NCBI RefSeq assembly: GCF_007655135.1
Contig: NC_045128.1
Location: forward strand, 18,260,811 to 18,324,810
Length of the DNA stretch: 64,000 nucleotides
Reading direction: 5' to 3'
From: Punica granatum
Lineage: Eukaryota; Streptophyta; Magnoliopsida; Myrtales; Lythraceae
Below, in pieces: positions 6,693 through 64,000 of the stretch (position 1 is its first letter; each line of letters starts with the position of its first letter). The position numbers were made by a program, and so were the translations under genes. The notes beneath the pieces are model-generated. The model was not told the origin of the DNA, ran no database searches, and saw only the letters and a program-made list of their open reading frames with translations.

Positions 6693-6695
6693 AGA

Positions 6696-35975: not shown

Positions 35976-36318
35976 TTTTCCGCGTGCCCGAGTAGGGTAT
36001 CGATGCGACGCCAGTTGTTAGTACCTGTATATGTGTAAGTGTATAAGTGCAATTGTTGTGTGTTAACCATCTTCGAGATGTAAATGACAATATATAAATG
36101 CGTGAGATGTATGAGTTTAAAAAAACACTAATGCCATTACATCAGCTTGATTCACGTTTCATAATTTACAAAGGCAGTCTGTTCAAAAGGAAACATAAAC
36201 ATTAAACCGCCAACTGTTACGACCCGTAGCTGAGTGAGCACTACGCGGGTTCTATACAGGCAAAAACGCTCAGCAACTGAGCTCAAGGGTGGGAGATCCT
36301 GTGCGCTCTTGCCTGCGC
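35976..36318 (-). other. ORF1-gag spacer (M3)
   Basis: Non-coding spacer matching that of M2 at 4304-4610. Both contain GTGTAAGTGTATAAGTGC-like and CATTACATCAGCTTGAT-like stretches. It fixes the limits of ORF1 and gag. Confidence 0.6.
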
Positions 36319-36852: not shown

Positions 36853-37855
36853 TGTCAGCACCCCATTTTGGCCCACCGGCTCCCCATGCGAGGATCCCCA
36901 ACCGAGGCCCGGGGCACTATTCATCACCCGGCAATTGGATGCAAATGGGCAGGCACGAGGCCATGGACAGTAAGAGAAGAGCACAATCCACTGAGAGAGA
37001 CGGAAGAGAGCAGTCAGAAGAACAGACGAACGAGGAATCCCGAAGACGGCGGAGCCGGCACTGTGGCACTATTCATCACTGAGTCACCGAAGCACCGAAA
37101 GGTGCCCAATATGGGGCTCCAAAAATCCCCCTCAGTGCCAAAACGACCAATGACGCGTCCGGACGCATTTCCGGGACATCCTGCTTGAGCCGGGACACCC
37201 CGATCCCCCACGGACGCCTTTTCTGACATAGCTCCTGGGGTTCGCCCCACTGACTAGCAAGCGGCCCCTCAAAATGGGCCTACAAGCACCCGGGGACCAC
37301 CAGGGCCGGGGAACAAGCTTCAGACAACCTTCCGGAGCTCGGCTCGGTCTCCCGAACTACGTTTCAGTGGTCACGAACGCCTCCCAGCGAGCCTTCGGGT
37401 ATTTCCACGAAAAGCAGAGACCACGAGGGTCTCTGAGTACCTCACAATAATCTCCAAGCACCTCAAGGCCTTCAGGGCACACTGAGAAAACCCCGGTCAA
37501 AGTCCCTAGGTCTTCCCGGGCCAACGGTCCCCGACCGAGGACGACGAGCCAACAATCACTCACGGGGCAATAGGATCGCCAAAACAAATGCAAGGATGCA
37601 CAAAGGTCAATCAGGGGTCGAGGGGCACTAAACTCCACTCCGAATGTCCAAACGAGGCAAAACCGACTCTCGAGGCGTCGAGTCGCCCGAACGTTCGTCC
37701 ACACGACGCATGGCGATATTGGGCTCATTCAAATCCTCGTAGTTCAAGCATTCCAAATCTTCAAATTAATTGGACATCGGAGGTCGGATGCAAGCTCAAT
37801 CGGGTCTCAAGCATTTTCCGGCTTTCTTCCTAATCAAGTGGAACCCTTGAGCTTG

Positions 37856-37902
37856 CCAAGCCGAGCCAAGCCGAGCCGAGCCGAGCCGAGCCGAGCCGCG
37901 AG
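37856..37902. repeat. (GAGCC)n microsatellite in the P2 LTR
   Basis: About nine imperfect units of GAGCC / CAAGCC / GAGCCGC. The other LTR copies lack it. Confidence 0.8.
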
Positions 37903-38136
37903 CCATGGCTCTCCTCTAAAGACAAGCCAAATGAGCCTCCACCACACATTTTCAAAATATCTTCTTACACCCATCACTTCCCTTCTCCCATCCATCACCT
38001 CCCATCCACTTTCCCCTGACTTCCCCTACACTCAACATGACAACTTCCCCACCCTAATCTTCCCTCCAAAAATTCGGATCCCCTAAGCACCACTTAATTG
38101 CACTTAACTCCACTTAATCTTGTCATTTAGTCTTCC

Positions 38137-38144
38137 TTTATAAG
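38137..38144 (+). promoter_or_regulatory. Putative LTR TATA box (P2)
   Basis: TTTATAAG follows TTAATTGCACTTAACTCCAC and precedes a CT-rich stretch (CTCTTGCACTCTCTCTTAG). The layout is the same as in P1 at 18842. Confidence 0.5.
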
Positions 38145-41100: not shown

Positions 41101-41669
41101 ACTCACGGCGAGTTAGAGTGGAATAATAACCGAACGCGAAACGACTGGAATTCGACCCTTTTTGTAATTTGTATTTATTGTTTTCGAGAGCAGGGATTCA
41201 ACCTCCATGGTTCGATGAACTGTAACGCAAGATTGTGAACCAACTCCCCGACATACGGGTTTACTTCTCTCTCGGCTTCTCAACCGACATCGTTTAATTC
41301 ACCGAATCTTCGGTGTCAAAATGTGCGAGCCGAGTGCAGCTTAATTCATGCGGTAAATCATAAAACATGCAAGCCTAGCAAACCATAGTACCGAAAGGGC
41401 GTGCGGGATATAGGCCCGCACGTAACATGAACCCCCGAACACGGATTTTTCGGTTCCGCATGACCATTGCCTTAGCATTTAGGTGTACCCCGTACCCCTA
41501 GACTCAGGCGACTCAACGGCCCTCGACCTACGGGTCGTAAACAGTAAGTGGCGACTCCTTCTCACGTGCGTCCGTCGCGTGTCCCCGGGAAGGTGGACAC
41601 TCCCAAGCCGCGTTTGCTTAGGCGCGCGCATGCGTGCCCCGATGAGATTAAATTCGGGTGCGCACAGCT

Positions 41670-41688
41670 TGGCGACTCCACTGGGGAC
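41670..41688 (+). promoter_or_regulatory. Primer binding site, tRNA-Arg type (P2)
   Basis: TGGCGACTCCACTGGGGAC complements the 3' end, CCA tail included, of the plant tRNA-Arg ending CCCCAGTGGAGTCG, as far as I can recall that tRNA. It lies three bases after the LTR. It is one base different from the M2 site. Confidence 0.85.
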
Positions 41689-42030
41689 ATCTAGAGGGTT
41701 CGGGCTCAATCCCGTTTGCTTGCTTGCTTGTTTATTTACTGCTTTCCGTCGTTTACCGCTTATCTATTTACGCACATTTATTTCACGCATGCATTGCATA
41801 TCATACTAGTTTCTTAGGTACCTTGTCCGACATCCCACGGGCACCAATATAGGAAGCTAGGTTAGTCAGAGGTTCCGAGTAAGGGAACGGATCGAGTCGG
41901 CTATGCCACCGAACCGGCCCCCAAAGATCCTCGCTCGATTTCAAGGAATTCACACCCTTGAGTCGGGAGCCCCCATCCATAGATAGCACGGTCCCTGTAG
42001 CACCGAACCATGCATCGTGCTATGCCTCCA
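41689..42030 (+). other. P2 untranslated leader
   Basis: Matches the M2 leader on the opposite strand (AGGAAGCTAGGTTAGTCAGA, then AAGATCCTCGCTCGATTTCA). It also holds TTTACTGCTTTCC at 41735-41747, a 13-base word that recurs in every unit of the array beginning at 46794. The M2 leader differs here (TTTATCGCTTTCC). Confidence 0.65.
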
Positions 42031-43383
42031 TGCAAGCCTTCAACCCGACTCCGACAAATAGTCCATCAGGTCGGCCTGCGTGCCACTTTGAGTCTCTTCT
42101 ATTTCGAGAGTGATGTACATGTACCTTGTAATTTATATTAAGCCGTGGGCATTTACTCTCTTCGTACACATGCATCATGCAGTTTTTAAAATTAGGATGT
42201 CTTTCATGTTGACGAGTCCTAAACGGAGTTTCCTGTCGTCTTGGTAAGGGACGCCTTGCTTGGCCTCCTGCCCGCGCCTCGACAAAGTCCGCCAACACAC
42301 GAGGACCTCACCGACTCGCCACAGAACGCGAATGGGGTATATTCCGGGACAAAATGATCGACCTCATCAACACTAGGTTCGATCACCGAGAGGTCGCTGA
42401 GAGATGAAGAACTCGCCGGCCAACCACCTTAGAGGGATCTCTCCCAAACCCGTGCCAAGATGCAGAGATGCGGTCAGGAGCTTGCTTGAGCGAACGCCGC
42501 CCTAGAGAGGTCTAGGAAGAGGGCTCGAGGAGGCCCACACATGCACTCTAGGATAGATATCTCTGCAAGGCCCTCGCCTAGAACCGATGCTTTCTGGGGC
42601 CGCGCTCGCTCAAACCCTGAGTGTGGTGGCAAATCAGCTTAAGGCTCTATTTTACAAAATTTGCATTGTACTTTGAACCTTTCGAGTCAATGTGAACGAC
42701 AACATTAGCATTTGAAAACTCACGTACTGCATGCATCCTATCCATTTACTGTTTTACACGACAATTAACACTACCACACGGTAGACAAAGTTGTGACCGC
42801 CTTTGCAGGTGGACCTCTCGTGGTCCTCACCCTTCCTCCACGGCGAGACGATCGGTAGCTCAAGGGCCAACCATCCAGGCAACACTAACTCCCCATTAAT
42901 CCCGCGCAATCGATTATGTCATTGCATGGTTGAGCACACGTCCCTCTATGCTACAAGTTCTTCCATCAGCACAACTGAGCGTGCCATTTCCGCGTCGTGC
43001 GAGCACACCCCTACCTTGCCCATGCACGCATCCTCGACACACCTTGTGCATATTTCTCAGTGCGCTCGCACGACGCCTACCAGCCTAGTTCAATCCCCTA
43101 CGCCCTTACGCTGAAATCGCAAATATAGTTCGCTCCTTCATTGTTTTCTTTTCCCATTGTAGGAAATTCTACACAAGAAGACAGCATGAATACTGATCAA
43201 CCACAATTGAGACAACAAACGTCTTCCATCCATCCAGCTCCTTGGGATTTCAACACTGAGTCCCCATCCCTACTCCACAAAGCAAGACCGCAAGCAAATC
43301 AGCGTCACCGTATCGCAGCGCCTCACGCTATTCCTCAGCATTGACCTTTGCTTTCGCATTTCTTGCACTTTCCTATCAACCCC
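42031..43383 (+). other. P2 internal DNA, nothing recognised
   Basis: About 1.35 kb without a gene that I can support. Two short plus frames (42803-43114 and 43141-43344) are rich in Ser, Thr, Pro and His, resemble no family I know and have no sister copy here. The place is where ORF1 and gag would be expected. Confidence 0.5.
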
Positions 43384-43750
43384 GCATTTATTGCATCAGG
43401 CTTCGGCCCCACACCGGGCTTTAGCCCTGCATCGGGCTCCAGCCCTGCATTTACTGCATTGGGCTTCGGCCCCGCATTTATTACATTGGGCTTTGGCCCC
43501 GCATTTATTACATTAGGCTTTGGCCCCGCATCGGGCTTCAGCCCTGCATCGGGCTCCGGCCCTGCATTTACTGCATTGTGCTTCGGCCCCGCATCGGGCT
43601 CCGTCCCTGCATTTTTTGCATTGGGTTTCGGCCCCGCATCGGGCCCTGGCCCCGCATTTACTGCATCGGGCTCCGGCCCCGCATTTACTGCTTTTGGGCT
43701 CCGGCCCCGCATTTACTACTTTCAGGTTTTGACACATCGCATTTACTGCT
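43384..43750. repeat. Minisatellite of GGCTTCGGCCCCGCATTTA type
   Basis: About 0.37 kb of units of roughly 18 and 27 bp built from GGGCTTCGGCCCCGCA(T), with or without TTTA(T/C)T(A/G)CATT. Toward its end the units change to CATTTACTGCTTT and CATTTACTACTTTCAGG. These words (GGGCTTCGGCC, TTTACTGCTTT, TTTACTACTTTC) are the same as those that build the large array from 46794. Confidence 0.85.
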
Positions 43751-44770
43751 TTCAGGCTCAACTAAAATCCAAAATCGACTTGGATTCAAATTCATCCAAG
43801 CGATACTCCGAGGAGCAAGTCTAATCCTTCAACCGCAAAGATCACAAGCGACAGCTCCGATGAACAGAACATGGCCCTGCCCACCCGCCGCGAAAGTCAT
43901 TAGCACGGTCACATCTCCGACCGGAGAATGATCCCTGCCCACCCTCCACTGTGGCCAACAACCAGCCACTGGGGCAACATGCACTATTCCCTAAACTCTC
44001 TTTTACATTTATATGCATTCTCAAACAAGCTCCAGGCATGAACGAACCCTTCACGGGCGCACTATGATAGCCCCGAAGATGCCCTGTTGGTTCTGTCGGA
44101 ATTGTTCGATTCGTCTGTCCTCATGGGATCCGACTTCTCGAGCCTTCCCTAGGACGGCTGCGCATGCTAACCAGCAATAGGGGAAAGTACACCTATGTGG
44201 CCCCTAGCCACGGTCTGCCCACTCCAGGGTGGCGATGACTAAATCTCGGAATTGAATGTCCCCTACGTGCGGCACCCCATGGGTCGCGCGCTGGACGAAG
44301 GAATTTCCCATGGGTCCACCTTACATTTCTTACCACATATTCCACCGCATAATCGCCTAATGCATCATCCTCTTTGTCATCCTTCATAGGGACACGCTAG
44401 TCGCGGGCGAAGAGCGATGCGCGGGTTCACACCTCCTCGAGAACTCCTATCGGGTCTTTCTTCCTATACTTTAGTAGGGAAGGGCCCGACAAGGAGGTAC
44501 CCCCTATGAAGCCGACGACGGAAGCATCCGAACGAGCCGCATGCCTTCAGCGCAACCGTCTCAATCGACAAACAAACATGCCTATCGGCTTCGAGAGCAC
44601 ACCTTTCCGGCGTACAACTGATGCTGGAGCCACAAGCACGATCGGGGACGATGATTGTACAAGACGCCCGACACAAATCACAAAGACCGGGGCATCCCCG
44701 TCCAACATTCACGCGAAGCAACCTTGGTCACCCACACTCCTGGGGAAATTTTGTTTTCTTTTTAGACAAT
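43751..44770 (+). other. P2 internal DNA, nothing recognised
   Basis: One kilobase without repeats or a supportable gene. Open frames up to about 88 codons occur on both strands, but none shows a known motif. Confidence 0.5.
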
Positions 44771-46793
44771 AGGGGAAAGGACTTGTAAAGTTTGCAAGGA
44801 CAAAAGACGCGAAGTTCGGCTTTTGAGTGCACAAGCATCAGACTTCTGGGAAAACCAACCCTCACAAAATTGGGCTAGGACTACAAAGTACATCAAGTCT
44901 CCATGGGGCGAAGCAAACAAAAGCAGCCTCGATGATGCAAAGTCGAGGAGTTTCAAACAAATATAAGGGGCACAATACAGACCCCAGCTGCAAGAAAAAA
45001 ACAGAGTGAAAAGACGCGGGAAAAACCCGCCAACAAAGAAGAGAAGAGAGAGAGAAAAGAAGCGGAAAAACCCGCCAACAAAAAATGGGGCAATGCCGAG
45101 GTTCACCAAAAGCACCGGCACCCCCAATCCAAAAGAAATGAATGAATCCCAACAAATAGGGAAGCAGCAGTCGCAACTCCTCGACGGAGACAGAACGTAA
45201 CGCACTCGGAGGTCGAATTATTCGAAACCGTCGCCCTTGCAAACACGAGAGACAAAAGAATCGAGCCTGCTAGGTTGAAAACCCCATGGGGCGATCTAGG
45301 CAAAAGTTAGGGCAAAAGAGAGGCACGACTGAAAATCCCGAGGCGGGCGGTCGTGGCAAAAGAAGAGTTCATCCTCTTTAGGTTGAGAGGTACGGCCCCG
45401 AGGCGGGTGACCGTAGCAAAAGGAGAGTAAAATGAGAGATAAACAAAATAGTCCCCTAGGCCTTCGCACACTGTGCGGACCAGGGATCCCCAAGGGAAAT
45501 GGCCAGGTTATCTACTCCAACACGATCCCCGATCGGCTCTCCTACCGAACTCAACCGTCCAAGGCGGATTCTTCTTCAAGCACAGCGGGCGACCAAGCAC
45601 GCAATCCAAACAGTTCAAGACAGCCAACACCAACCGAAGGGCGGAACAGAAGGGGGTACATCTCACTGCAGACGTGAACCCGTGTATCCTTTTAGCCTAG
45701 GGCAATGTGCTCCCCAAGCTTTCTCTTTTTCCTTTGTCATTCACATAACTCTAACGGGTCACGGCCACCCTTCAATCGGCTACCGCAAAGCCAAAATCCT
45801 AGACATTTCTTTCCGGGAGTCTAGTCATAACACTCTGGAAATGACTAGACCGAGGTCTGACCAAATTTGAACGAAATTCCGCATGCGGGTTACAAATGCA
45901 GCCGCCCTACGGTACCCTAATGAGAAGGGTCCTAAGTTCACGGGCGCGTCGAACAACCGATAGAGCCACTTGGGCACCTTTGAGAACGTCTCGATATGCC
46001 CATGTAAGGCCAACAGGAGCCCCGGAGGCCTTGCATCGAGGCCTCTGAAAGCGAGATCCCATTCGCATCGCTAAAACAAAAACTCTTTGCGGGTCGCTCA
46101 GGCGACCCGAAACTAAAGAGTGTGCGTCTCAAAGACATCTTTTTATCCGCGCTTACACGTTGTTAATAACCCCCATGACTTACTAATGATGTCAGGATCA
46201 CACTTACAACAAACGCGGGAACTACGACAGACTCTGATTCTTGACTCCTCGGGATACGTAGGCACTCTACCCCAGAGTCCGAGTCCCTTATCGCACGACC
46301 GGGCATCCCAAGCGAACTACAATCGCCACTGCGACAGAGCTGACATCCGGCAAAGCAACGACTAACCGCCCCAGCAGCAAAGCCGGCTTCCGGCAGATCA
46401 AACAAACCGCCACCCCAAGGGAAAGTATAGACGAAGCAACTTTATCGCAGCAGCAACGCTAATCTACAGCAGATCAACACCTTTGGGACAGCATCAGCCC
46501 TGTACACTTGGCGCGCACCACTGTCCACATGGCTAACGAAGAGTTATGCTCTTCTTTGCAGATACGCATGGAACCCCAAGGGGCATCTCCTTCTTGACGA
46601 ATGCACGATTGGCTTGCGCGACAGATCAGGGTTTTGAACCAAACGGAGGGCATGACAAAGAATCCTCTTGGCCCTAGTTCGAGGGAACGACAAATAACAA
46701 GCTCGACTCGGGGCGGGACAATCTGCCTCTGCCAACACCTCCGGCACATCACCTAACGCGGATCCCCGCCTCTACTCCCCCTTGCATATCGTT
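44771..46793 (+). other. P2 3' UTR-like region before the array
   Basis: From 45270 the plus strand reads CTAGGTTGAAAACC, then GGCAAAAGTTAGGG and ACCGTAGCAAAAGGAGAGTA (45411-45430). The M3 3' UTR has the same words in the same order on its strand (28570-28470). A weaker internal repetition of the GAGGCGGG..CGT.GCAAAAG..GAG motif is visible at 45340-45425. The remaining bases up to 46793 show no gene and end in a C-rich stretch before the first array unit. Confidence 0.6.
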
Positions 46794-49700
46794 CACTTTA
46801 CTGCTTTCCACGGGCTTCGGCCTATTAACTTTACTGCTTTCCACGGGCTTCGGCCTAGTAACTTTACTGCTTTCCGGACTTCGCGTCCATGGACTTCGCG
46901 TCCACTTCACTGCTTTCCACGGGCTTCGGCCTAGTAACTTTACTGCTTTCCACGGGCTTCGGCCTAGTAACTTTACTGCTTTCCGGACTTCGCGTCCATG
47001 GACTTCGCGTCCACTTTACTGCTTTCCACGGGCTTCGGCCTAGTAACTTTATTGCTTTCCGGACTTCGCGTCCACTTTACTGCTTTCCACGGGCTTCGGC
47101 CTAATAACTTTACTGCTTTCCGGACTTCGCGTCCACTTTACTGCTTTCCACGGGCTTCGGCCTAGTAACTTTATTGCTTTCCGGATTTCGCGTCCACTTA
47201 ACTGCTTTCCACGGGCTTCGGCCTAGTAACTTTACTGCTTTCCACGGGCTTCAGCCTAGTAACTTTATTGCTTTCCGGACTTCGTGTCCAATTTACTGCT
47301 TTCCACGGGCTTCGGCCTAGTAACTTTACTGCTTTCCGGACTTCGCGTCCACTTTACTGCTTTCCACGGGCTTCGGCCTAGTAAATTTACTGCTTTCCAC
47401 GGGCTTCGGCCTAGTAACTTTATTGCTTTCCGGACTTCGCGTCCACGGACTTCGCGTCCACTTTACTGCTTTCCACGGGCTTCGGCCTAGTAACTTTACA
47501 GCTTTCCACGGGCTTCAGCCTAGTAACTTTATTGATTTCCTGACTTCGCGTCCACGGACTTCGCGTCCACTTTACTGCTTTCCACGGGCTTCGGCCTAGT
47601 AACTTTATTGTTTTCCACGGGCTTCGGCCTAGTAACTTTATTGCTTTCCGGACTTCGCGTCCACTTTACTGCTTTCCACGGGCTTCGGCCTAGTAACTTT
47701 ACTGCTTTCCACGGGCTTCGGCCTAGTAACTTTATTGCTTTCCGGACTTCGCGTCCACTTTACTGCTTTCCACGGGCTTCAGCCTAGTAACTTTATTGAT
47801 TTCCTGACTTCGCGTCCACGGACTTCGCGTCCACTTTACTGCTTTCCACGGGCTTCGGCCTAGTAACTTTATTGTTTTCCACGGGCTTCGGCCTAGTAAC
47901 TTTATTGCTTTCCGGACTTCGCGTCCACTTTACTGCTTTCCACGGGCTTCGGCCTAGTAACTTTACTGCTTTCCACGGGCTTCGGCCTAGTAACTTTATT
48001 GCTTTCCGGACTTCGCGTCCACTTTACTGCTTTCCACGGGCTTCGACCTAGTAACTTTATTGCTTTCCGGACTTTGCGTCCACGGACTTCGCGTCCACTT
48101 TACTGTTTTCCACGGGCTTCGGCCTAGTAACTTTACTGCTTTCCACGGGCTTCGGCCTAGTAACTTTATTGCTTTCCGGACTTCGCGTCCACGGACTTCG
48201 CGTCCACTTTACTGCTTTCCACGGGCTTCGGCCTAGTAACTTTACTGCTTTCCACGGGCTTCGGCCTAGTAACTTTATTGCTTTCCGGACTTCGCGTCCA
48301 CTTTACTGCTTTCCACGGGCTTCGGCCTAGTAACTTTATTGCTTTCCGGACTTTGCGTCCACGGACCTCGCGTCCACTTTACTGCTTTCCACGGGTTTCG
48401 GCCTAGTAACTTTACCGCTTTCCACGGGCTTCGGCCTAGTAACTTTAATGCTTTTCGGACTTCGCGTCCACGGACTTCTCGTCCACTTTACTGCTTTCCA
48501 CGGGCTTCGGCCTAGTAACTTTACTGCTTTCCACGGGCTTCGGCCTAGTAACTTTATTGCTTTCCGGACTTCGCGTCCACTTTACTGCTTTCCACGGGCT
48601 TCGGCCTAGTAACTTTACTGCTTTCCACGGGCTTCGGCCTAGTAACTTTATTGCTTTCCACGGGCTTCGGCCTAGTAACTTTATTGCTTTCCGGACTTCG
48701 CGTCCACGGACTTCGCATCCACTTTACTGCTTTCCACGGGCTTCGGCCTAGTAACTTTACTGCTTTCCACGGGCTTCGGCCTAGTAACTTTATTGCTTTC
48801 CGGACTTCGCGTCCACGGACTTCGCGTCCACTTTACTGCTTTCCACGGGCTTCGGCCTAGTAAATTTACTGCTTTCCACGGGCTTCGGCCTAGTAACTTT
48901 ATTGCTTTCCGGACTTCGCGTCCACTTTACTGCTTTCCACGGGCTTCGACCTAGTAACTTTACTGCTTTCCACGGGCTTCGGCCTAGTAACTTTATTGTT
49001 TTCCACGGGCTTCGGCCTAGTAACTTTATTGTTTTCCACGGGCTTCGACCTAGTAACTTTATTGCTTTCCGGACTTCGCGTCCACGGACTTCGCGTCCAC
49101 TTTACTGCTTTCCACGGGCTTCGGCCTAGTAACTTTACTGCTTTCCACGGGCTTCGGCCTAGTAACTTTATTGCTTTCCGGACTTCGCGTCCACGGACTT
49201 CGCGTCCACTTTACTACTTTCCACGGGCTTCAACCTAGTAACTTTATTGCTTTCCGGACTTTGCGTCCACGGACTTCGCGTCCACTTTACTGTTTTCCAC
49301 GGGCTTCGGCCTAGTAACTTTACTGCTTTCCACGGGATTCGGCCTAGTAACTTTATTGCTTTCCGGACTTCGCGTCCACGGACTTCGCGTCCACTTTACT
49401 GCTTTCCACGGGCTTCGGCCTTGTAACTTTATTGCTTTCCGGACTTCGCGTCCACGGACTTCGCGTCCACTTTACTGCTTTCCACGGGCTTCGGCCTAGT
49501 AACTTTATTGCTTTCCGGACTTTGCGTCCACGGACCTCGCGTCCACTTCACTGCTTTCCACGGGTTTCGGCCTAGTAACTTTACCGCTTTCCACGGGCTT
49601 CGGCCTAGTAACTTTAATGCTTTTCGGACTTCGCGTCCACGGACTTCTCGTCCACTTTACTGCTTTCCACGGGCTTCGGCCTAGTAACTTTACTGCTTTC

Positions 49701-52700
49701 CACGGGCTTCGGCCTAGTAACTTTATTGCTTTCCGGACTTCGCGTCCACGGACTTCGCGTCCACGGACTTCGCGTCCACTTTACTGCTTTCCACGGGCTT
49801 CGGCCTAGTAACTTTACTGCTTTCCACGGGCTTCGGCCTAGTAACTTTATTGCTTTCCACGGGCTTCGGCCTAGTAACTTTATTGCTTTCCGGACTTCGC
49901 GTCCACGGACTTCGCGTCCACTTTACTGCTTTCCACGGGCTTCGGCCTAGTAACTTTACTGCTTTCCACGGGCTTCGGCCTAGTAACTTTATTGCTTTCC
50001 GGACTTCGCGTCCACGGACTTCGCGTCCACTTTACTGCTTTCCACGGGCTTCAACCTAGTAACTTTATTGCTTTCCGGACTTTGCGTCCACGGACCTCGC
50101 GTCCACTTTACTGCTTTCCACGGGTTTCGGCCTAGTAACTTTACCGCTTTCCACGGGCTTCGGCCTAGTAACTTTAATGCTTTTCGGACTTCGCGTCCAC
50201 GGACTTCTCGTCCACTTTACTGCTTTCCACGGGCTTCGGCCTAGTAACTTTACTGCTTTCCACGGGCTTCGGCCTAGTAACTTTATTGCTTTCCGGACTT
50301 CGCGTCCACGGACTTCGCGTCCACTTTACTGCTTTCCACGGGCTTCGGCCTAGTAACTTTACTGCTTTCCACGGGCTTCGGCCTAGTAACTTTATTGCTT
50401 TCCACGGGCTTCGGCCTAGTAACTTTATTGCTTTCCGGACTTCGCGTCCACGGACTTCGCATCCACTTTACTGCTTTCCACGGGCTTCGGCCTAGTAACT
50501 TTACTGCTTTCCACGGGCTTCGGCCTAGTAACTTTATTGCTTTCCGGACTTCGCGTCCACGGACTTCGCGTCCACTTTACTGCTTTCCACGGGTTTCGGC
50601 CTAGTAACTTTACTGCTTTCCACGGGCTTCAGCCTAGTAACTTTATTGCTTTCCGGACTTCGCGTCCACTTTACTGCTTTCCACGGGCTTCGGCCTAGTA
50701 ACTTTACTGCTTTCCACGGGCTTCGGCCTAGTAACTTTATTGTTTTCCACGGGCTTCGGCCTAGTAACTTTATTGCTTTCCGGACTTCGCGTCCACTTTA
50801 CTGCTTTCCACGGGCTTCGGCCTAGTAACTTTACTGCTTTCCACGGGCTTCGGCCTAGTAACTTTATTGCTTTCCGGACTTCGCGTCCACTTTACTGCTT
50901 TCCACGGGCTTCGACCTAGTAACTTTATTGCTTTCCGGACTTTGCGTCCACGGACTTCGCGTCCACTTTACTGTTTTCCACGGGCTTCGGCCTAGTAACT
51001 TTACTGCTTTCCACGGGCTTCGGCCTAGTAACTTTATTGCTTTCCACGGGCTTCGGCCTAGTAACTTTATTGCTTTCCGGACTTCGCGTCCACGGACTTC
51101 GCATCCACTTTACTGCTTTCCACGGGCTTCGGCCTAGTAACTTTACTGCTTTCCACGGGCTTCGGCCTAGTAACTTTATTGCTTTCCGGACTTCGCGTCC
51201 ACGGACTTCGCGTCCACTTTACTGCTTTCCACGGGCTTCGGCCTAGTAAATTTACTGCTTTCCACGGGCTTCGGCCTAGTAACTTTATTGCTTTCCGGAC
51301 TTCGCGTCCACGGACTTCGCGTCCACTTTACTGCTTTCCACGGGCTTCGACCTAGTAACTTTACTGCTTTCCACGGGCTTCGGCCTAGTAACTTTATTGT
51401 TTTCCACGGGCTTCGGCCTAGTAACTTTATTGTTTTCCACGGGCTTCGGCCTAGTAACTTTATTGCTTTCCGGACTTCGCGTCCACGGACTTCGCGTCCA
51501 CTTTACTGCTTTCCACGGGCTTCGGCCTAGTAACTTTACTGCTTTCCACGGGCTTCGGCCTAGTAACTTTATTGCTTTCCGGACTTCGCGTCCACGGACT
51601 TCGCGTCCACTTTACTACTTTCCACGGGCTTCAACCTAGTAACTTTATTGCTTTCCGGACTTTGCGTCCACGGACTTCGCGTCCACTTTACTGTTTTCCA
51701 CGGGCTTCGGCCTAGTAACTTTACTGCTTTCCACGGGATTCGGCCTAGTAACTTTATGCTTTCCGGACTTCGCGTCCACGGACTTCGCGTCCACTTTACT
51801 GCTTTCCACGGCTTCGGCCTAGTAACTTTATTGCTTTCGGACTTCGCGTCCACGGACTTCGCGTCCACTTTACTGCTTTCCACGGGCTTCGGCCTAGTAA
51901 ATTTACTGCTTTCCACGGGCTTCGGCCTAGTAACTTTATTGCTTTCCGGACTTCGCGTCCACGGACTTCGCGTCCACTTTACTGCTTTCCACGGGCTTCG
52001 ACCTAGTAACTTTACTGCTTTCCACGGGCTTCGGCCTAGTAACTTTATTGTTTTCCACGGGCTTCGGCCTAGTAACTTTATTGTTTTCCGGACTTCGCGT
52101 CCACGGACTTCGCGTCCACTTTACTGCTTTCCACGGGCTTCGGCCTAGTAACTTTACTGCTTTCCACGGACTTCGGCCTAGTAACTTTATTGCTTTCCAC
52201 GGGCTTCGGCCTAGTAACTTTATTGCTTTCCGGACTTCGCGTCCACGGACTTCGCATCCACTTTACTGCTTTCCACGGGCTTCGGCCTAGTAACTTTACT
52301 GCTTTCCACGGGCTTCGGCCTAGTAACTTTATTGCTTTCCGGACTTCGCGTCCACGGACTTCGCGTCCACTTTACTGCTTTCCACGGGCTTCGGCCTAGT
52401 AACTTTACTGCTTTCCACGGGCTTCGGCCTAGTAACTTTATTGCTTTCCGGACTTCGCGTCCACGGACTTCGCGTCCACTTTACTGCTTTCCACGGGCTT
52501 CGGCCTAGTAACTTTACTGCTTTCCACGGGCTTCGGCCTAGTAACTTTATTGCTTTCCGGACTTCGCGTCCACGGACTTCGCGTCCACTTTACTACTTTC
52601 CACGGGCTTCAACCTAGTAACTTTATTGCTTTCCGGACTTTGCGTCCACGGACTTCGCGTCCACTTTACTGTTTTCCACGGGCTTCGGCCTAGTAACTTT

Positions 52701-55700
52701 ACTGCTTTCCACGGGCTTCGGCCTAGTAACTTTATTGCTTTCCGGACTTCGCGTCCACGGACTTCGCGTCCACTTTACTGCTTTCCACGGGCTTCGGCCT
52801 AGTAACTTTATTGCTTTCCGGACTTCGCGTCCACGGACTTCGCGTCCACTTTACTGCTTTCCACGGGCTTCGGCCTAGTAACTTTATTGCTTTCCGGACT
52901 TTGCGTCCACGGACCTCGCGTCCACTTTACTGCTTTCCACGGGTTTCGGCCTAGTAACTTTACCGCTTTCCACGGGCTTCGGCCTAGTAACTTTAATGCT
53001 TTTCGGACTTCGCGTCCACGGACTTCTCGTCCACTTTACTGCTTTCCACGGGCTTCGGCCTAGTAACTTACTGCTTTCCACGGGCTTCGGCCTAGTAACT
53101 TTATTGCTTTCCGGACTTCGCGTCCACGGACTTCGCGTCCACTTTACTGCTTTCCCGGGGTTCGGCCTAGTAACTTTACTGCTTTCCACGGGCTTCGGCC
53201 TAGTAACTTTATTGCTTTCCACGGGCTTCGGCCTAGTAACTTTATTGCTTTCCGGACTTCGCGTCCACTTTACTGCTTTCCACGGGCTTCGGCCTAGTAA
53301 CTTTACTGCTTTCCACGGGCTTCGTCCTAGTAACTTTATTGCTTTCCGGACTTCGCGTCCACGGACTTCGCGTCCACTTTACTGCTTTCCACGGGCTTCG
53401 GCCTAGTAAATTTACTGCTTTCCACGGGCTTCGGCCTAGTAACTTTATTGCTTTCCGGACTTCGCGTCCACGGACTTCGCGTCCACTTTACTGCTTTCCA
53501 CGGGCTTCGGCCTAGTAACTTTACTGCTTTCCACGGGCTTCGGCCTAGTAACTTTATTGTTTTCCACGGGCTTCGGCCTAGTAACTTTATTGCTTTCCGG
53601 ACTTCGCGTCCACGGACTTCGCGTCCACTTTACTGCTTTCCACGGGCTTCGGCCTAGTAAGTTTACTGCTTTCCACGGGCTTCGGCCTAGTAACTTTATT
53701 GCTTTCCGGACTTCGCGTCCACGGACTTCGCGTCCACTTTACTGCTTTCCACGGGCTTCAACCTAGTAACTTTATTGCTTTCCGGACTTTGCGTCCACGG
53801 ACCTCGCGTCCACTTTACTGCTTCCACGGGTTTCGGCCTAGTAACTTTACCGCTTCCACGGGCTTCGGCCTAGTAACTTTAATGCTTTTCGGACTTCGCG
53901 TCCACGGACTTCTCGTCCACTTTACTGCTTTCCACGGGCTTCGGCCTAGTAACTTTACTGCTTTCCACGGGCTTCGGCCTAGTAACTTTATTGCTTTCCG
54001 GACTTCGCGTCCACGGACTTCGCGTCCACTTTACTGCTTTCCACGGGCTTCGGCCTAGTAACTTTACTGCTTTCCACGGGCTTCGGCCTAGTAACTTTAT
54101 TGCTTTCCACGGGCTTCGCCTCCTAGTAACTTTATTGCTTTTCGGACTTCGCGTCCACGGACTTCGCATCCACTTTACTGCTTTCCACGGGCTTCGGCCT
54201 AGTAACTTTACTGCTTTCCACGGGCTTCGGCCTAGTAACTTTATGCTTTCCGGGCTTCGCGTCCACGGACTTCGCGTCCACTTTACTGCTTTCCACGGGC
54301 TTCGGCCTAGTAACTTTACTGCTTTCCACGGGCTTCGGCCTAGTAACTTATTGCTTTCCGGACTTCGCGTCCACGGACTTCGCGTCCACTTTACTGCTTT
54401 CCACGGGCTTCGGCCTAGTAACTTTACTGCTTTCCACGGGCTTCGGCTAGTAACTTTATTGTTTTCCACGGGCTTCGCCGCCTAGTAACTTTATTGCTTT
54501 CCGGACTTCGCGTCCACTTTACTGCTTTCCACGGGCTTCGGCCTAGTAACTTTACTGCTTTCCACGGGCTTCGGCCTAGTAACTTTATTGCTTTCGGACT
54601 TCGCGTCCACGGACTTCGCGTCCACTTTACTACTTTCCACGGGCTTCAACCTAGTAACTTTATTGCTTCCGGACTTTGCGTCCACGGACTTCGCGTCCAC
54701 TTTACTGTTTTCCACGGGCTTCGGCCTAGTAACTTTACTGCTTTCCACGGGATTCGGCCTAGTAACTTTATTGCTTTCCGGACTTCGCGTCCACGGACTT
54801 CGCGTCCACTTTACTGCTTTCCACGGGCTTCGGCCTAGTAACTTTATTGCTTTCCGGACTTCGCGTCCACGGACTTCGCGTCCACTTTACTGCTTTCCAC
54901 GGGCTTCGGCCTAGTAAATTTACTGCTTTCCACGGGCTTCGGCCTAGTAACTTTATTGCTTTCCGGACTTCGCGTCCACGGACTTCGCGTCCACTTTACT
55001 GCTTTCCACGGGCTTCGACCTAGTAACTTTACTGCTTTCCACGGGCTTCGGCCTAGTAACTTTATTGTTTTCCACGGGCTTCGGCCTAGTAACTTTATTG
55101 TTTTCCGGACTTCGCGTCCACGGACTTCGCGTCCACTTTACTGCTTTCCACGGGCTTCGGCCTAGTAACTTTACTGCTTTCCACGGGACTTGGCCTAGTA
55201 ACTTTATTGCTTTCCACGGGCTTCGGCCTAGTAACTTTATTGCTTTCCGGACTTCGCGTCCACGGACTTCGCATCCACTTTACTGCTTTCCACGGGCTTC
55301 GGCCTAGTAACTTACTGCTTTCCACGGGCTTCGGCCTAGTAACTTTATTGCTTTCCGGACTTCGCGTCCACGGACTTCGCGTCACTTTACTGCTTTCCAC
55401 GGGCTTCGGCCTAGTAACTTTACTGCTTTCCAGGCTTCGGCCTAGTAACTTTATTGCTTTCCGGACTTCGCGTCCACGGACTTCGCGTCCACTTTACTGC
55501 TTTCCACGGGCTTCGGCCTAGTAACTTTACTGCTTTCCACGGGCTTCGGCCTAGTAACTTATTTGCTTTCCGGACTTCGCGTCCACGGACTTCGCGTCCA
55601 CTTTACACTTTCCACGGGCTTCAAACCTAGTAACTTTATTGCTTTCCGGACTTTGCGTCCACGGACTTCGCGTCCACTTTATGTTTTCCACGGGCTTCGG

Positions 55701-58700
55701 CCTAGTAACTTTACTGCTTTCACGGGCTTCGGCCTAGTAACTTTATTGCTTTCCGGACTTCGCGTCCACTTTACTGCTTTCCACGGGCTTCGGCCTAGTA
55801 ACTTTACTGCTTTCCACGGGCTTCGGCCTAGTAACTTTATTGCTTTCCGGACTTCGCGTCCACGGACTTCGCGTCCACTTTACTACTTTCCACGGGCTTC
55901 AACCTAGTAACTTTATTGCTTTCCGGACTTTGCGTCCACGGACTTCGCGTCCACTTTACTGTTTTCCACGGGCTTCGGCCTAGTAACTTTACTGCTTTCC
56001 ACGGGATTCGGCCTAGTAACTTTATTGCTTTCCGGATTCGCGTCCAAGACTTCGCGTCCACTTTACTGCTTCCACGGGCTTCGGCCTAGTAACTTTATTG
56101 CTTTCCGGACTTCGCGTCCACGGACTTCGCGTCCACTTTACTGCTTTCCACGGGCTTCGGCTAGTAAATTTACTGCTTTCCACGGGCTTCGGCCTAGTAA
56201 CTTTATTTGCTTTCCGGACTTCGCGTCCACGGACTTCGCGTCCACTTTACTTTCCACGGGCTTCGACCTAGTAACTTTACTGCTTTCCACGGGCTTCGGC
56301 CTAGTAACTTTATTGTTTTCCACGGGCTTCGCCCTAGTAACTTTATTGTTTCGGACTTCGCGTCCACGGACTTCGCGTCCACTTACTGCTTTCCACGGGC
56401 TTCGGCCTAGTAACTTTACTGCTTTCCACGGACTTCGGCCTAGTAACTTTATTGCTTTCCACGGGCTTCGGCTAGTAACTTTATTGCTTTCCGGACTTCG
56501 CGTCCACGGACTTCGCATCCACTTTAATGCTTTCCACGGGCTTCGGCCTAGTAACTTTACTGCTTTCCACGGGCTTCGGCCTAGTAACTTTATGCTTCCG
56601 GACTTCGCGTCCACGGACTTCGCGTCCACTTTACTGCTTTCCACGGGCTTCGGCCTAGTAACTTTACTGCTTCCACGGGCTTCGGCCTAGTAACTTTATT
56701 GCTTTCGGGACTTCGCGTCCACGGACTTCGCGTCCACTTTACTGCTTTCCACGGGCTTCGGCCTAGTAACTTTACTGCTTTCCACGGGCTTCGGCCTAGT
56801 AACTTTATTGCTTTCCGGACTTCGCGTCCACGGACTTCGCGTCCACTTTACTACTTTCCACGGGCTTCAACCTAGTAACTTTATTGCTTTCCGGACTTTG
56901 CGTCCACGGACTTCGCGTCCACTTTACTGTTTTCCACGGGCTTCGGCCTAGTAACTTACTGCTTTCCACGGGCTTGGCCTAGTAACTTATTGCTTTCCGG
57001 ACTTCGCGTCCACGGACTTCGCGCCACTTTACTGCTTTCCACGGGCTTCGGCCTAGTAACTTTATTGCTTTCCGGACTTCGCGTCCACGGACTTCGCGTC
57101 CACTTTACTGCTTTCCACGGGCTTCGGCCCTAGTAACTTTATTGCTTTCCGGACTTTGCGTCCACGGACCTCGCGTCCACTTCACTGCTTTCCACGGGTT
57201 TCGGCCTAGTAACTTTACCGCTTTCCACGGGCTTCGGCCTAGTAACTTTAATGCTTTTCGGACTTCGCGTCCACGGACTTCTCGTCCACTTTACTGCTTT
57301 CCACGGGCTTCGGCCTAGTAACTTTACTGCTTTCCACGGGCTTCGCCTAGTAACTTTATTGCTTTCCGGAATTCGCGTCCACGGACTTCGCGTCCACTTT
57401 ACTGCTTTCCATGGGGTTCGGACCTAGTAACTTTACTGCTTTCCACGGGCTTCGGCCTAGTAACTTTATTGCTTTCCACGGGCTTCGGCCTAGTAACTTT
57501 ATTGCTTTCCGGACTTCGCGTCCACGGACTTGCGTCCACTTACTGCTTTCCACGGGCTTCGGCCTAGTAACTTACTGCTTTCCACGGGCTTCGTCCTAGT
57601 AACTTTATTGCTTTCCGGACTTCGCGTCCACGGACTTCGCGTCCCACTTACTGCTTTCCACGGCTTCGGCCTAGTAAATTTACTGTTTCACGGGCTTCGG
57701 CCTAGTAACTTTATTGCTTTCCGGACTTCGCGTCCACGGACTTCGCGTCCACTTTACTGCTTTCCACGGGCTTCGGCCTAGTAACTTTACTGCTTTCCAC
57801 GGGCTTCGGCCTAGTAACTTTATTGTTTTCCACGGGCTTCGGCCTAGTAACTTTATTGCTTTCCGGACTTCGCGTCCACGGACTTCGCGTCCACTTTACT
57901 GCTTTCCAGGGCTTCGGCCTAGTAAGTTTACTGCTTTCCACGGGCTTCGGCCTAGTAACTTTATTGCTTTCCGGACTCGCGTCCACGGACTTCGTCGTCC
58001 CTTTGCTGCTTTTCCACGGGCTTCAACCTAGTAACTTTATTGCTTCCGGACTTTGCGTCCACGGAACTCGCGTCCACTTTACTGCTTTCCACGGGTTTCG
58101 GCCTAGTAGTAACTTTACGCTTTCCACGGGCTTCGGCCTAGTAACTTAATGCTTTTCGACTTCGCGTCCACGGACTTCTCGTCCACTTTACTGCTTTCCA
58201 CGGGCTTCGGCTAGTAACTTTACTGCTTTCCACGGGCTTCGGCCTAGTAACTTTATTGCTTTCCGGACTTCGCGTCCACGGACTTCGCGTCCACTTTACT
58301 GCTTTCCACGGGCTTCGGCCTAGTAACTTTACGGCTTTCCACGGGCTTCGGCCTAGTAACTTTATTGCTTTCCACGGGCTTGGCCTAGTAACTTTATTGC
58401 TTTCCGGACTTCGCGTCCACGGACTTCGCATCCACTTTACTGCTTTCCACGGGTTTAGGCCTAGTAAACTTTACTGCTTTCCACGGGCTTCGGCCTAGTA
58501 ACTTTATTGCTTTCCGGACTTCGCGTCCACGGACTTCGCGTCCACTTTACTGCTTTCCACGGGCTTCGGCATAGTAACTTTACTGCTTTCCACGGGCTTC
58601 AGCCTAGTAACTTTATGCTTCCGGACTTCGCGTCCACGGACTTCGCGTCCACTTTACTGCTTTCCACGGGCTTCGGCCTAGTAACTTTACTGCTTTCCAC

Positions 58701-61700
58701 GGGCTTCGGGCTAGTAACTTTATTGTTTTCCACGGGCTTCGGCCTAGTAACTTTATTGCTTTCCGGACTTCGCGTCCACTTTACTGCTTCCACGGGCTTC
58801 GGCCTAGTAACTTACTGCTTTTCACGGGCTTCGGCCTAGTAACTTTATTGCTTTCGGACTTCGCGTCCACTTACTGCTTTCCACGGGCTTCGACCTAGTA
58901 ACTTTATTGCTTTCCGGACTTTGCGTCCCGGACTTCGCGTCCACTTTACTGTTTTCCACGGGCTTCGGCCTAGTAACTTTACTGCTTTCCACGGGCTTCG
59001 GCCTAGTAGTAACTTTTTGCTTTCCGGACTTCGCGTCCACGGACGTCGCGTCCACTTTACTGCTTTCCACGGGCTTCGGCCTAGTAACTTATTGCTTTCC
59101 GGACTTTGCGTTCACGGACCTCGCGCCACTTACTGCTTTCCACGGGTTTCGGCCTAGTAACTTTACCGCTTTCCACGGGCTTCGGCCTAGTAACTTTAAT
59201 GCTTTTCGGACTTCGCGTCCAAGGACTTCTCGTCCACTTTACTGCTTTCCACGGGCTTCGGCTAGTAACTTTACTGCTTTCCACGGGCTTCGGCCCTAGT
59301 AAACTTTATTGCTTTCCGGACTTCGCGTCCACGGACTTCGCGTCCACTTTACTGCTTTCCACGGGCTTCGGCCTAGTAACTTTACTGCTTTCCACGGGCT
59401 TCGGCATAGTAACTTTATTGCTTTCCACGGGCTTCGGCCTAGTAACTTTATTGCTTTCCGGACTCGCGTCCACGGACTCGCATCCACTTTACTGCTTTCC
59501 AAGGGCTTCGGCTAGTAAATTTACTGCTTTCCACGGGCTTCGGCCCTGTAACTTTATTGCTTTCCGGACTTCGCGTCCACGGACTTCGCGTCCACTTTAC
59601 TGCTTTCCACGGGCTTCGGCCTAGTAACTTACTGCTTTCCACGGGCTTCAGCCTAGTAACTTTATTGCTTTCCGGACTTCGCGTCCACGGACTTCGCGTC
59701 CACTTTATGCTTTCCACGGGCTTCGGCCTAGTAACTTTACTGCTTTCCACGGGCTTCGGCCTAGTAACTTTATGTTTTCCACGGGCTTCGGCCTAGTAAA
59801 CTTTATTGCTTTCCGGACTTCGCGTCACTTATGGCTTTCCACGGGCTTCGGCCTAGTAACTTTTACTGCTTTCCACGGGCTTCGGCCTCCTAGTAACTTT
59901 ATTGCTTTCCGGAATTCGCGTCCACTTTACTGCTTTCCACGGGCTTCGACCTAGTAACTTATTGCTTCCGGACTTTGCGTCCACGGACTCGCGTCCACTT
60001 TACTGCTTTACACGGGCTTCGGCCTAGTAACTTTACTGCTTTCCACGGGCTTCGGCCTAGTAACTTTATTGCTTTCCGGACTTCGCGTTCCACGGACGTC
60101 GCGTCCACTTTATGCTTTCCACGGGCTTCGGCCTAGTAACTTTATTGCTTTCGGACTTTGCGTCCACGGACCTCGCGTCCACTTTACTGCTTTCACGGGT
60201 TTCGGCCTAGTAACTTTACCGCTTTCCACGGGCTTCGGCCTAGTAACTTTAATGCTTTCGGACTTCGCGTCCACGGATTCTCGTCCACTTTACTGCTTTC
60301 CACGGGCTTCGGCCTAGTAACTTTACTGCTTTCCACGGGCTTCGGCCTAGTAACTTTATTGCTTTCCGGACTTCGCGTCCACGGACTTCGCGTCCACTTT
60401 ACTGCTTTCCACGGGCTTCGGCCTAGTAACTTTACTGCTTTCCACGGGCTTCGGCCTAGTAACTTTATTGCTTTCCACGGGCTTCGGCCTAGTAACTTTA
60501 TTGCTTTCCGGACTTGCGTCCACGGACTTCGCATCCACTTTACTGCTTTCCACGGGCTTCGGCCGTAGTAACTTTATGCTTTCCACGGGCTTCGGCATAG
60601 TAACTTTATTGCTTTCCGGACTTCGCGTCCACGGACTTCGCGTCCACTTTATGCTTTCCACGGGCTTCGGCCTAGTAAATTTACTGCTTTCACGGGCTTC
60701 GGCCTAGTAACTTATTGCTTTCGGACTTCGGTCCACGGACTTCGCGTCCACTTTACTGCTTTCCACGGGCTTCGACCTAGTAACTTTATGCTTTCCACGG
60801 GCTTCGGCCTAGTAACTTTATTGTTTTCCACGGGCTTCGGCCTAGTAACTTTATTGTTTCCGGACTTCGCGTCCACGGACTTCGCGTCCACTTTACTGCT
60901 TTCCACGGGCTTCGGCTAGTAACTTTACTGCTTTCCACGGGCTTCGGCCTAGTAACTTTATTGCTTTCCACGGGCTTCGGCCTAGTAACTTTATTGCTTC
61001 CGGACTTCGCGTCCACGGACTTGCATCCACTTTACTGCTTTCCACGGGCTTCGGCCTAGTAACTTTACTGCTTTCCACGGGCTTCTGGCCTAGCCTAGTA
61101 ACTTTATTGCTTTCCGGACTTCGCGTCCACGGACTTCGCGTCCACTTTACTGCTTTCCACGGGCTTGGCCTAGTAACTTTATGCTTTCCACGGGCTTCGG
61201 CCTAGTAACTTTATTGCTTTCCGGACTTCGCGTCCACGGACTTCGCGTCCACTTTACTGCTTTCCACGGGCTTCGGCCTAGTAACTTTACTGCTTTCCAC
61301 GGGCTTCGGCCTAGTAACTTTATGCTTTCCGGACTTCGCGTCCACGGACTTCGCGTCCACTTTACTACTTTCCACGGGCTTCAACCTAGTAACTTTTTGC
61401 TTTCCGGACTTTGCGTCCGGGATTCGCGTCCACTTTACTGTTTTCCACGGGCTTCGGCCTAGTAACTTTACTGCTTTCCACGGGCTTCGGGCCTAGTAAC
61501 TTTATTATTTCCGGACTTCGCGCGTCCACGGACTTCGCGTCCACTTTATGCTTTCCACGGGCTTCGGCCTAGTAACTTTATTGCTTTCCGGACTTCGCGT
61601 CCACGGACTTCGCGTCCACTTTACTGTTTCCACGGGCTTCGGCCTAGTAACTTTATTGCTTTCCGGACTTTGCGTCCACGGACCTCGCGTCCACTTTACT

Positions 61701-64000
61701 GCTTTCACGGGTTTCGGCCTAGTAACTTACCGCTTTCCACGGGCTTCGGCCTAGTAACTTTAATGCTTTTCGGACTTCGCGTCCACGGACTTCTCGTCCA
61801 CTTTACTGCTTTCCACGGGCTTCGGCCTAGTAACTTTACTGTTCACGGGCTTCTGCTAGTAACTTATTGCTTTCCGGACTTCGGTCCACGGACTTCGCGT
61901 CCAATTACTGCTTTCCACGGGCTTACGCCTAGTAACTTTACTGCTTTCCACGGGCTTAGGCCTAGTAACTTTATTGCTTTCCACGGGCTTCGGCCTAGTA
62001 AACTTTATTGCTTTCCGGACTTCGCGTCCACGGACTTCGCGTCCACTTTACTGCTTTCCACGGGCTTCGGCCTAGTAACTTTATGCTTTCCACGGGCTTC
62101 GTCCTAGTAACTTTATGCTTTCCGGACTTCGCGTCCACGGACTTCGCGTCCACTTTACTGCTTTCCACGGGCTTCGGCCTAGTAAATTACTGCTTTCCAC
62201 GGGCTTCGCTCCTAGTAACTTTATTGCTTTCCGGACTTCGCGTCCACGGACTTCGCGTCCACTTTACTGCTTTCCACGGGCTTCGGCCTAGTAACTTTAC
62301 TGCTTTCCACGGGCTTCGGCCTAGTAACTTTATTGTTTCCACGGGCTTGGCCTCGCCTAGTAACTTTATTGCTTTCCGGACTTCGCGTCCCACGGACTTC
62401 GCGTCCACTTTACTGCTTCCACGGGCTTCGGCCTAGTAACTTTACTGCTTTCACGGGCTTCGGCCTAGTAGTAACTTTATTGCTTTCCGGACTTCGCGTC
62501 CACGGACTTCGCGTCCACTTTACTGCTTTCCACGGGCTTCAACCTAGTAACTTTATTGCTTTCCGGATTTGCGTCCACGGACCTCGCGTCCACTTTATGC
62601 TTTCCACGGGTTTCGGCCTAGTAACTTTACCGCTTTCCACGGGCTTCGGCCTAGTAACTTTAATGCTTTTCGGACTTCGCGTCCACGGACTTCTCGTCCA
62701 CTTTACTGCTTTCCACGGGCTTCGGCCTAGTAACTTTACTGCTTTCCACGGGGGCTTCGGCCTAGTAACTTTATTGCTTTCCGGACTTCGCGTCCACGGA
62801 ACTTCGCGTCCACTTTACTGTTCCACGGGCTTCGGCCTAGTAACTTTACTGCTTTCCACGGGCTTCGGCCTAGTAACTTTATTGATTTCAACGGGCTTCG
62901 GCCTAGTAACTTTATTGCTTCCGGACTTCGCGGTCCACGGACTTCGCATCACTTACTGCTTTCCACGGGCTTCGGCCTAGTAACTTTACTGCTTTCACGG
63001 GCTTCGGCCTAGTACTAGTAACTTTATTGCTTTCCGGACTTCGCGTCCACGGACTTCGCGTCCACTTTACTGCTTTCCACGGGCTTCGGCCTAGTAAATT
63101 TACTGCTTTCACGGGCTTCGGCCTAGTAACTTTATTGCTTTCCGGACTTCGCGTCCACGGACTTCGAGCCACGGACTTCGCGTCCACTTACTGCTTCCAC
63201 GGGCTTCGACCTAGTAACTTTACTGCTTTCCACGGGCTTCGGCCTAGTAACTTTATTGTTTTCCACGGGCTTCGGCTTAGTAACTTTATTGCTTTCCGGA
63301 CTTCGCGTCCACGGACTTCGCGTCCACTTATGCTTTCACGGGCTTCGGCTAGTAGTAACTTTACTGCTTTCCACGGGCTTCGCCTAGTAACTTTATTGCT
63401 TTCCGGACTTCGCGTCCACGGACTTCGCGTCCACTTTACTACTTTCCAAGGGCTTCAACCTAGTAACTTTATTGCTTTCCGGACTTTGCGTCCACGGACT
63501 TCGCGTCCACTTTACTGTTTTCCACGGGCTTCGGCCTAGTAACTTTACTGCTTCCACGGGCTTCGGCCTAGTAACTTTATTGCTTTCCGGACTTCGCGTC
63601 CACGGACTTCGCGTCCACTTTACTGCTTTCCACGGGCTTCGCCTAGTAACTTTATTTCTTTCCGGACTTCGCGTCCACGGACTTCGCGTCACTTTACTGC
63701 TTTCACGGGCTTCGACCTAGTAACTTTATTGCTTTCCGGACTTTGCGTCCACGGACCTCGCGTCCACTTTACTGCTTTCCACGGGTTTGCCTAGTAACTT
63801 TACCGCTTTCCACGGGCTTCGGCTTAGTAACTTTATGCTTTCGGACTTCGCGTCCACGGACTTCTCGTCCACTTTACTGCTTTCCACGGGCTTCGGCCTA
63901 GTAACTTTACTGCTTTCCACGGGCTTCGGCCTCCTAGTAACTTTATTGCTTTCCGGACTTCGCGTCCACGGACTTCGCGTCCACTTTACTGCTTTCCACG
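46794..64000. repeat. Satellite-like tandem array, over 17 kb, runs past the window
   Basis: Built from three unit types. The 33-bp unit is TTTACTGCTTTCCACGGGCT followed by TCGGCCTAGTAAC. The 28-bp unit is TTTATTGCTTTCCGGACTTC followed by GCGTCCAC. A 43-bp form of the latter carries an extra GGACTTCGCGTCCAC. Usually two or three 33-bp units are followed by one 28- or 43-bp unit, giving blocks such as 94, 109 and 142 bp. Variants (TTTACTACTTT, GGCTTCAACC, GGACTTTGCG, TTTACCGCTTT, TTTAATGCTTTTCGG) recur in fixed order and mark larger blocks. The 33-bp unit has no stop in several frames, so the array yields many short open frames of FTAFHGLRPSN or its reverse; I regard none as genes. Single-base indels are rare before about 51.7 kb and common after about 55 kb. 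Confidence 0.95.

Follow-up and report, generated by a model that had tools for sequence, protein, structure and literature searches.

Long terminal repeat (LTR) retrotransposons of the Tat lineage (Ogre/Retand) of Ty3/gypsy carry a second RNase H (aRH) between the RNase H (RH) and the integrase (INT) (PMC6317226). In Lathyrus sativus, 9 of 11 abundant satellites also occur within Ogre elements, some of them without pol, in the form of short arrays, and Vondrak et al. (2020, PMC7004042) argue that these satellites arose in Ogre, with cross-species support for three. The authors state that single arrays cannot be told apart by their method; in this closest published case, the route from repeat to satellite was inferred from reads unassigned to single loci. 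Here, we describe one such locus in a 64,000-bp stretch of pomegranate (Punica granatum) DNA (C2:18260811-18324810, hereafter the window), where an Ogre-like element, P2, holds a minisatellite array that fills the window from position 46794 to its right end. We conclude that P2 is very probably a complete insertion without gag-pol, lying within another Ogre-like element (M3), and that the array in its 3' untranslated region (3'UTR) probably expanded mostly in place and by blocks. Throughout, C2, C3, C8, C44, C356, and C379 are contigs of the same genome, and L-numbers denote fetched stretches.

The kind of event is already known from the Ogre 3'UTR satellites of Lathyrus; what is new here is completeness at the level of a locus and a record of block-wise growth. 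The preliminary description of this DNA spoke of a direct view of a satellite's birth. That holds insofar as a single locus is mapped, but Lathyrus sativus (PMC7004042) provides a precedent, in which single loci could not be followed. As reported there, short tandem repeats of the Ogre 3'UTR expand into satellites, some elements are nonautonomous and lack pol, and short, intermediate, and long arrays occur side by side; all of this is seen here too. Unlike the nine Ogre-derived satellites in that report, in which the monomer is the longest period, P2 is one element with an LTR pair and a target site duplication (TSD), and it has interleaved units, a 109-bp higher-order repeat, and kilobase-scale blocks. 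Soybean Gmr9/GmOgre (Mogil et al. 2012, PMC3305785) likewise has distinct interleaved minisatellite units in variable order between the coding region and the LTR, a likeness of arrangement and not of unit sequence; the longest unbroken array given for it is, however, 4,760 bp. Arrays of this kind are found in about half of the Retand elements that were recently active (PMC11963269), and Retand also has a long region between pol and the 3' LTR, often with arrays, and some nonautonomous members, whereas its LTRs measure 315 to 1,194 bp as opposed to 4.8 kb in P2. Among the papers listed for pomegranate satellite DNA and for Punica Ogre, none deals with this repeat, as judged by titles and the openings of abstracts, and the strings "centromer," "satellite," and "Ogre" are absent from the 2025 "Sanbai" genome paper (PMC11979328). 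The P2 locus offers an outside (the TSD and the interrupted open reading frame, or ORF, of the host), a clock (the LTR pair), an internal record (unit variants), and sister copies that represent the starting state. It therefore allows one to ask whether growth came before or after insertion, how large the copied blocks were, and how fast they accumulated. The features of P2, in window coordinates unless a contig is named, are as follows.

36848 to 36852, plus strand: left copy of the TSD, CTCCC, read in the window letters (right copy, C356:8773-8777)
36853 to 41666, plus strand: 5' LTR of 4,814 bp, TGTCAGCACCCC ... GCGCACA (partner 3' LTR, C356:3817 to ~8772)
41667 to 41985, plus strand: 5'UTR, common to element M1 of the window (80% match to 6694-6395)
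41669 to 41689, plus strand: candidate primer binding site (PBS), TTGGCGACTCCACTGGGGACA, from its position directly past the LTR end
43380 to 43760, plus strand: initial short minisatellite tract with a 27-bp unit, whose length also varies in a sister copy
45234 to 45484, plus strand: 3'UTR block common to M3, CTAGGTTGAAAACC ... GGCAAAAG, from sequence match
46560 to 46793, plus strand: 3'UTR running up to the array, from genome matches of its 234 bp
46794 to 64000, plus strand: array of A, B, and C units, which goes on to L009:4348 and, after a gap, from C356:1 to ~3570
46794 to 47012, plus strand: inherited array head of 8 units, from the variant map
48332 (first start) to 63722 (last start in the window), plus strand: copies of a right-end variant motif, 12 in the window and 16 with the extension
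L009:4349-4448 (C2:18329159-18329258): scaffold gap of 100 N

P2 has the 5' LTR and, at about 41669, the PBS-like stretch that had been proposed for it, while most of what was taken as its leader is LTR. Self-comparison gives LTRs of ~4.5 to 5.4 kb for the elements of the window, and the LTR start TGTCAGCACCCC has 2,112 + 1,998 occurrences in the genome versus 3 + 8 for a reversed control. Position 44771, considered as an element border, showed no boundary; P2 begins at 36853. Between 41691 and 46793, no stop-to-stop frame exceeds 168 amino acids, and the three longest frames (151, 159, and 168 amino acids), the ones scanned, have no Pfam match. Frame and Pfam scans of this interval thus found no gag-pol within P2, in line with the preliminary description. 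Bodies of this type are common: with 42100-42700 as the query, the best 40 of 1,380 candidates scored, P2 included, are 94 to 100% identical. P2 is therefore a member of a gag-pol-less family and not a lone wreck. Its proposed resemblance to the 3'UTR of M3 was also borne out, as 45247-45371 matches M3 28593-28468 at 74% (E value, 2e-17), with weaker blocks up to 45484. The first tract is longer in a sister copy (L053:8607-9281), and its 27-bp unit is similar to unit A of the array, with a score reached by 1 of 2000 shuffles.

The array was said to start at 46794 and to run for more than 17 kb, and both statements hold: the first unit starts at 46794/46795, and units occupy the rest of the window. 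We counted 627 units there, comprising 321 A (33 bp), 163 B (28 bp), and 143 C (15 bp). They are grouped into 164 blocks, of which 80 are A-A-B-C (109 bp), 34 are A-B-C, 23 are A-A-A-B-C, and the remainder are of other forms. Past the window, another 4,348 bp (161 units) precede the scaffold gap, so that the array on C2 measures 21,555 bp (46794 to window coordinate 68348). In 1-kb bins, indels amount to 0 to 0.2% up to ~53.8 kb and to 1.1 to 3.2% beyond (53800-68348), whereas substitutions from the unit consensus are flat at 2.0 to 3.2% per bin. This combination is expected where fewer long reads reach from the left flank toward the contig end, and we infer that the array outlasts long reads anchored on that flank. 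Such a gradient of indels, with flat substitutions, offers an easy sign that long-read quality declines within an array. The long array could also be an assembly artefact, a chimera of several short arrays. The "Tunisia" pomegranate assembly is based on PacBio reads and used Canu, Pilon, and Hi-C (PMC7061868); if the host is "Tunisia," its PacBio, Canu, and Pilon origin would favor this explanation, as does the increase of indels toward the gap. Five copies of the right-end motif, however, already lie in the clean first 7 kb, a word private to the P2 array is confined to the P2 locus and C356, and the error gradient is in keeping with reads that are anchored in the left flank. We regard a chimera as very unlikely.

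The private word pointed to the right border of P2. It has 10 exact matches in the genome, 9 in P2 and 1 at position 116 of C356, an unplaced contig of 82,533 bp whose first 260 bp differ from the P2 array by 1 mismatch and 3 gaps. The stretch C356:1-3570 was read as array at 3 places, with most of its letters unread; array letters were found by the probes at 1500 and 3000, and LTR of the P2 type by those at 5000, 7000, and 8500, with 1 difference from the P2 5' LTR in the 150 bp read. A subfamily 3'UTR word (one of 12 genome matches) lies between the two at C356:3604. The LTR segment C356:3817-8153 is the best non-self match to the P2 5' LTR, over the full query length and without net length change (7750 bits versus 7822 for self and 7590 for the next best). 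The LTR pair thus has ~16 differences in 4,337 bp (0.37%), a count derived from bit scores (+2/-3, no gaps) and not from an alignment. Directly after the LTR end, C356:8773-8777 reads CTCCC, the same five bases that precede 36853; LTR end plus CTCCC (C356:8765-8777) has 16 genome matches versus 3 for a reversed control. Further on, C356:9253 aligns with M1 ORF1 at window position 5656 (39/47) in the expected orientation. The continuation of M3 had been predicted beforehand at ~5660, since the M3 break matches M1 at 5181; recounted from the TSD, the expected position is 5656. Another, diverged LTR at C356:9880-10220 indicates that this region is further nested.

From these matches, we infer that C356 is the right flank of the P2 locus, which would place the array between the 3'UTR and a 3' LTR, as the preliminary description had supposed; C356 appears to belong at the scaffold gap C2:18329159-18329258. 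Two matching LTRs and a 5-bp TSD, the marks of a complete insertion, are then found across the unclosed gap. An array ending in unrelated DNA, or a TSD placing the end of P2 before 46794, had been named as evidence against that arrangement; on C356, the array is instead followed by subfamily 3'UTR, LTR, and CTCCC, and the TSD places the end of P2 after the array. Across this join, P2 (36853-68348 on C2 plus C356:1-8772) would measure at least 40.3 kb, at least 25.1 kb of it array. The DNA past the gap on C2 was rejected as the right border, as it matches the M3 gag frame on the plus strand at 64% and belongs to another element. Alternatively, C356 might be a second copy of the same insertion, from a segmental duplicate or the other haplotype. 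The contig is unplaced, and the P2 5' LTR lacks ~142 bp of the C356 LTR at 41190/41191. The LTR pair, however, differs by only ~0.37%, and no ORF1 match adjoins the gap on its right side, where 140 kb of C2 were fetched (ORF1-like sequence was found only on L014, L016, and L022). We consider a second copy rather unlikely, and even if it were one, the border structure of the insertion would stand. The ~142 bp missing from the P2 5' LTR are present in the LTR of C379 as well as in the presumed 3' LTR.

To place the array within its family, we used the 234 bp ahead of it as a query. The best 40 of 398 candidates scored, P2 included, comprise 39 other places at 93 to 100% identity, and 15 of the 40 are at 97 to 100%; 30 were fetched, one being P2. 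The search for this junction in other copies, suggested in the preliminary description, gave a uniform answer: in 29/29 fetched relatives, the array follows the 3'UTR junction, with the same interleaved units. The association is therefore not due to chance. Most of these arrays are short, with 26/29 closed at 84 to 1,853 bp (lengths from a k-mer rule that may overrun by some bases), 2 long, and 1 cut by a contig end (L037). Past the closed arrays, a polypurine word is found in 21/26 and the LTR-start word in 20/26. Among three neighboring copies inspected, the array is followed by a polypurine tract (PPT) and LTR in two, while the third is interrupted there. In the L015 copy beside the window, RT (reverse transcriptase), RH, aRH, and INT lie in one frame (4143-7400), and an array at ~8605-9415 is followed by PPT and LTR. 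One long relative extends from C2:20279547 to ~20286787 (~7.2 kb, of which 2.7 kb are unread) and is closed by 3'UTR, PPT, and LTR. The other begins at the same element junction on C3 (L036) and runs downward from 22420111 (22400000-22420111, minus strand), with array letters at the 8-, 12-, and 20-kb probes and the stretches between them unread beyond 4.4 kb. Thus, the hallmark of a satellite derived from an Ogre 3'UTR, short arrays in the 3'UTRs of relatives together with a long array, is present. The C3 array might instead suggest that the element family captured a satellite that had already existed free-standing, or that P2 inserted beside it. Such an origin is scarcely plausible, given that all 29 fetched relatives have the array directly after the element junction and that it is short in 26, that the C3 array likewise starts at that junction, and that the P2 array appears to be bounded by 3'UTR and LTR with the TSD outside.

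To read how the P2 array grew, we coded its units by variants and compared them with sister arrays, seven of those coded being complete. The 8-unit head, present once in P2, is one variant off those of L023, L025, L027, L029, and L035 and likewise that of L028, which has one unit fewer; the heads of L026, L031, L032, L033, L034, and L036 are less like it. At the other end, the arrays of L054, L053, and L025 close with the variant motif c-o-E-I-e-C-A-A, as does that of L035 with one difference. In P2, this motif recurs 16 times along the array, mostly in a private form, and its copies lie on average 1,316 bp apart (median, 1,053), about the length of one sister array. Block copies are also seen inside the array, e.g., 50998-55073 and 55277-59317, and together with the motif spacing they suggest repeated duplication of the whole short array. 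Sister arrays match P2 at only 83 to 91% with gaps (best row each; L030, with 122 bp only, excepted), although their flanks are 97 to 100% alike, so that turnover is much faster in the tract than in the flanking DNA. Five motif copies lie before ~53.8 kb; over 268 bp, three of them are without substitution, one differs from these by 2, and the first differs by 4; relative to the copy at 50061, five motif copies have zero substitutions. At a rate of 1.3e-8 substitutions per site per year, the P2 insertion would be about 0.1 to 0.3 million years old.

Together, these data suggest how the locus was formed. P2 would be a complete nonautonomous Ogre-like element, consisting of LTR, PBS-like stretch, 5'UTR, noncoding body, minisatellite-bearing 3'UTR, and LTR, and it would have landed in ORF1 of M3. 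Its relatives in the family mostly hold 0.1 to 1.9 kb of 33-, 28-, and 15-bp units between pol (or body) and 3' LTR, and in P2 this short tract would have enlarged to at least 25.1 kb. Most of the growth would postdate the insertion and have taken place at this site, as blocks roughly the size of an ancestral array or larger (0.9 to 4.5 kb) were duplicated through out-of-register exchange or errors of replication, rather than by unit-by-unit slippage. Unequal exchange and replication-based duplication are both candidate mechanisms. We lean slightly toward a stronger reading, in which a satellite was born in place in a young insertion by repeated whole-array block duplication, the head remaining frozen, the motif being copied at least 16 times, and a kilobase-scale higher-order repeat arising at once and not by late homogenization.

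Several observations weigh against this account, in addition to the LTR length difference and a gap that is unbridged by letters, with C356 possibly a haplotig or duplicate. Three of the seven complete coded sister arrays (L026, L032, and L034) lack the motif at their end. Between the first motif copy and the four that follow it, 4 of ~268 positions differ where the LTR pair predicts ~1, and thus the first duplication may predate insertion. The longest block pairs differ by 1.1 to 3.4% in substitutions, above 0.37%, a comparison confounded by shifted register and unpolished letters, and the letters beyond 53.8 kb are of lower quality. The array could have been enlarged before or during retrotransposition, by template switching in reverse transcription, so that P2 arrived already long. 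A similar hypothesis for short 3'UTR repeats is cited in PMC7004042, and the first motif copy seems older than the LTR pair. This course, which we consider improbable, would require an RNA of at least ~35 kb; the private word matches only P2 and C356 genome-wide, and five motif copies show no substitution relative to the copy at 50061. Most of the growth is compatible with the time after insertion.

The host of P2 is M3, and P2 lies within its ORF1 on the opposite strand.

21591 to 36852, minus strand: M3, Ogre-like, interrupted by P2, from self-comparison and domain scans (continuation at C356:9253)
27028 to 21591, minus strand: M3 3' LTR
28743 to 27029, minus strand: M3 3'UTR
28743 to 36017, minus strand: M3 pol and gag frames, with ORF1 broken at 36852

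M3 carries RT, RH, second RNase H, integrase, and G-patch domains (Pfam), and its gag match is below Pfam's cutoff. The Pfam order RT, RH, RVT_3, H2C2, rve holds both in the M3 frames and in the array-bearing L015 copy. The aRH of the Tat lineage is thus found in the relatives only, P2 being without pol. Ogre elements form a subclade with an extra sense-strand ORF upstream of gag, and such an ORF is present here: M1 ORF1 carries DUF7745, and the M3 stretch beside the gag frame matches M1 ORF1 at 75% DNA identity, the domain scan having covered M1 ORF1 alone. M3 has 3'UTR repeats of its own (27244-27639), which are not the same as the P2 array.

Elements of the P2 type also occur head to tail, 11.7 to 12.4 kb apart, on C379 (L053), C356, C8 (15921287-15944377 and 15970462-15982809), and C44. 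On C379, two bodies are separated by a single shared LTR, indicating that whole elements form a macrosatellite too. The order there (array, PPT, LTR, PBS, next body in line) is that of retrotransposons in tandem with a common LTR (see the review PMC12628747), and the fixed intervals at which Lathyrus FabTR-58 arrays are interlaced with Ogre (PMC7004042) are comparable. This arrangement is a property of the sister elements and not of the giant array. Unit hairpins, considered as a driver of array growth, were no better than shuffles (A, z = -0.07; B+C, z = -0.89), and they are weak too in the 27-bp unit of the first tract (z = -1.97) and the M3 repeat (z = -1.83). Finally, a G-rich 21-bp tandem tract, GGGCGCGGGCGTGCTGGTGAC, lies at 24441-25091, within the stretch taken as the M3 LTR.

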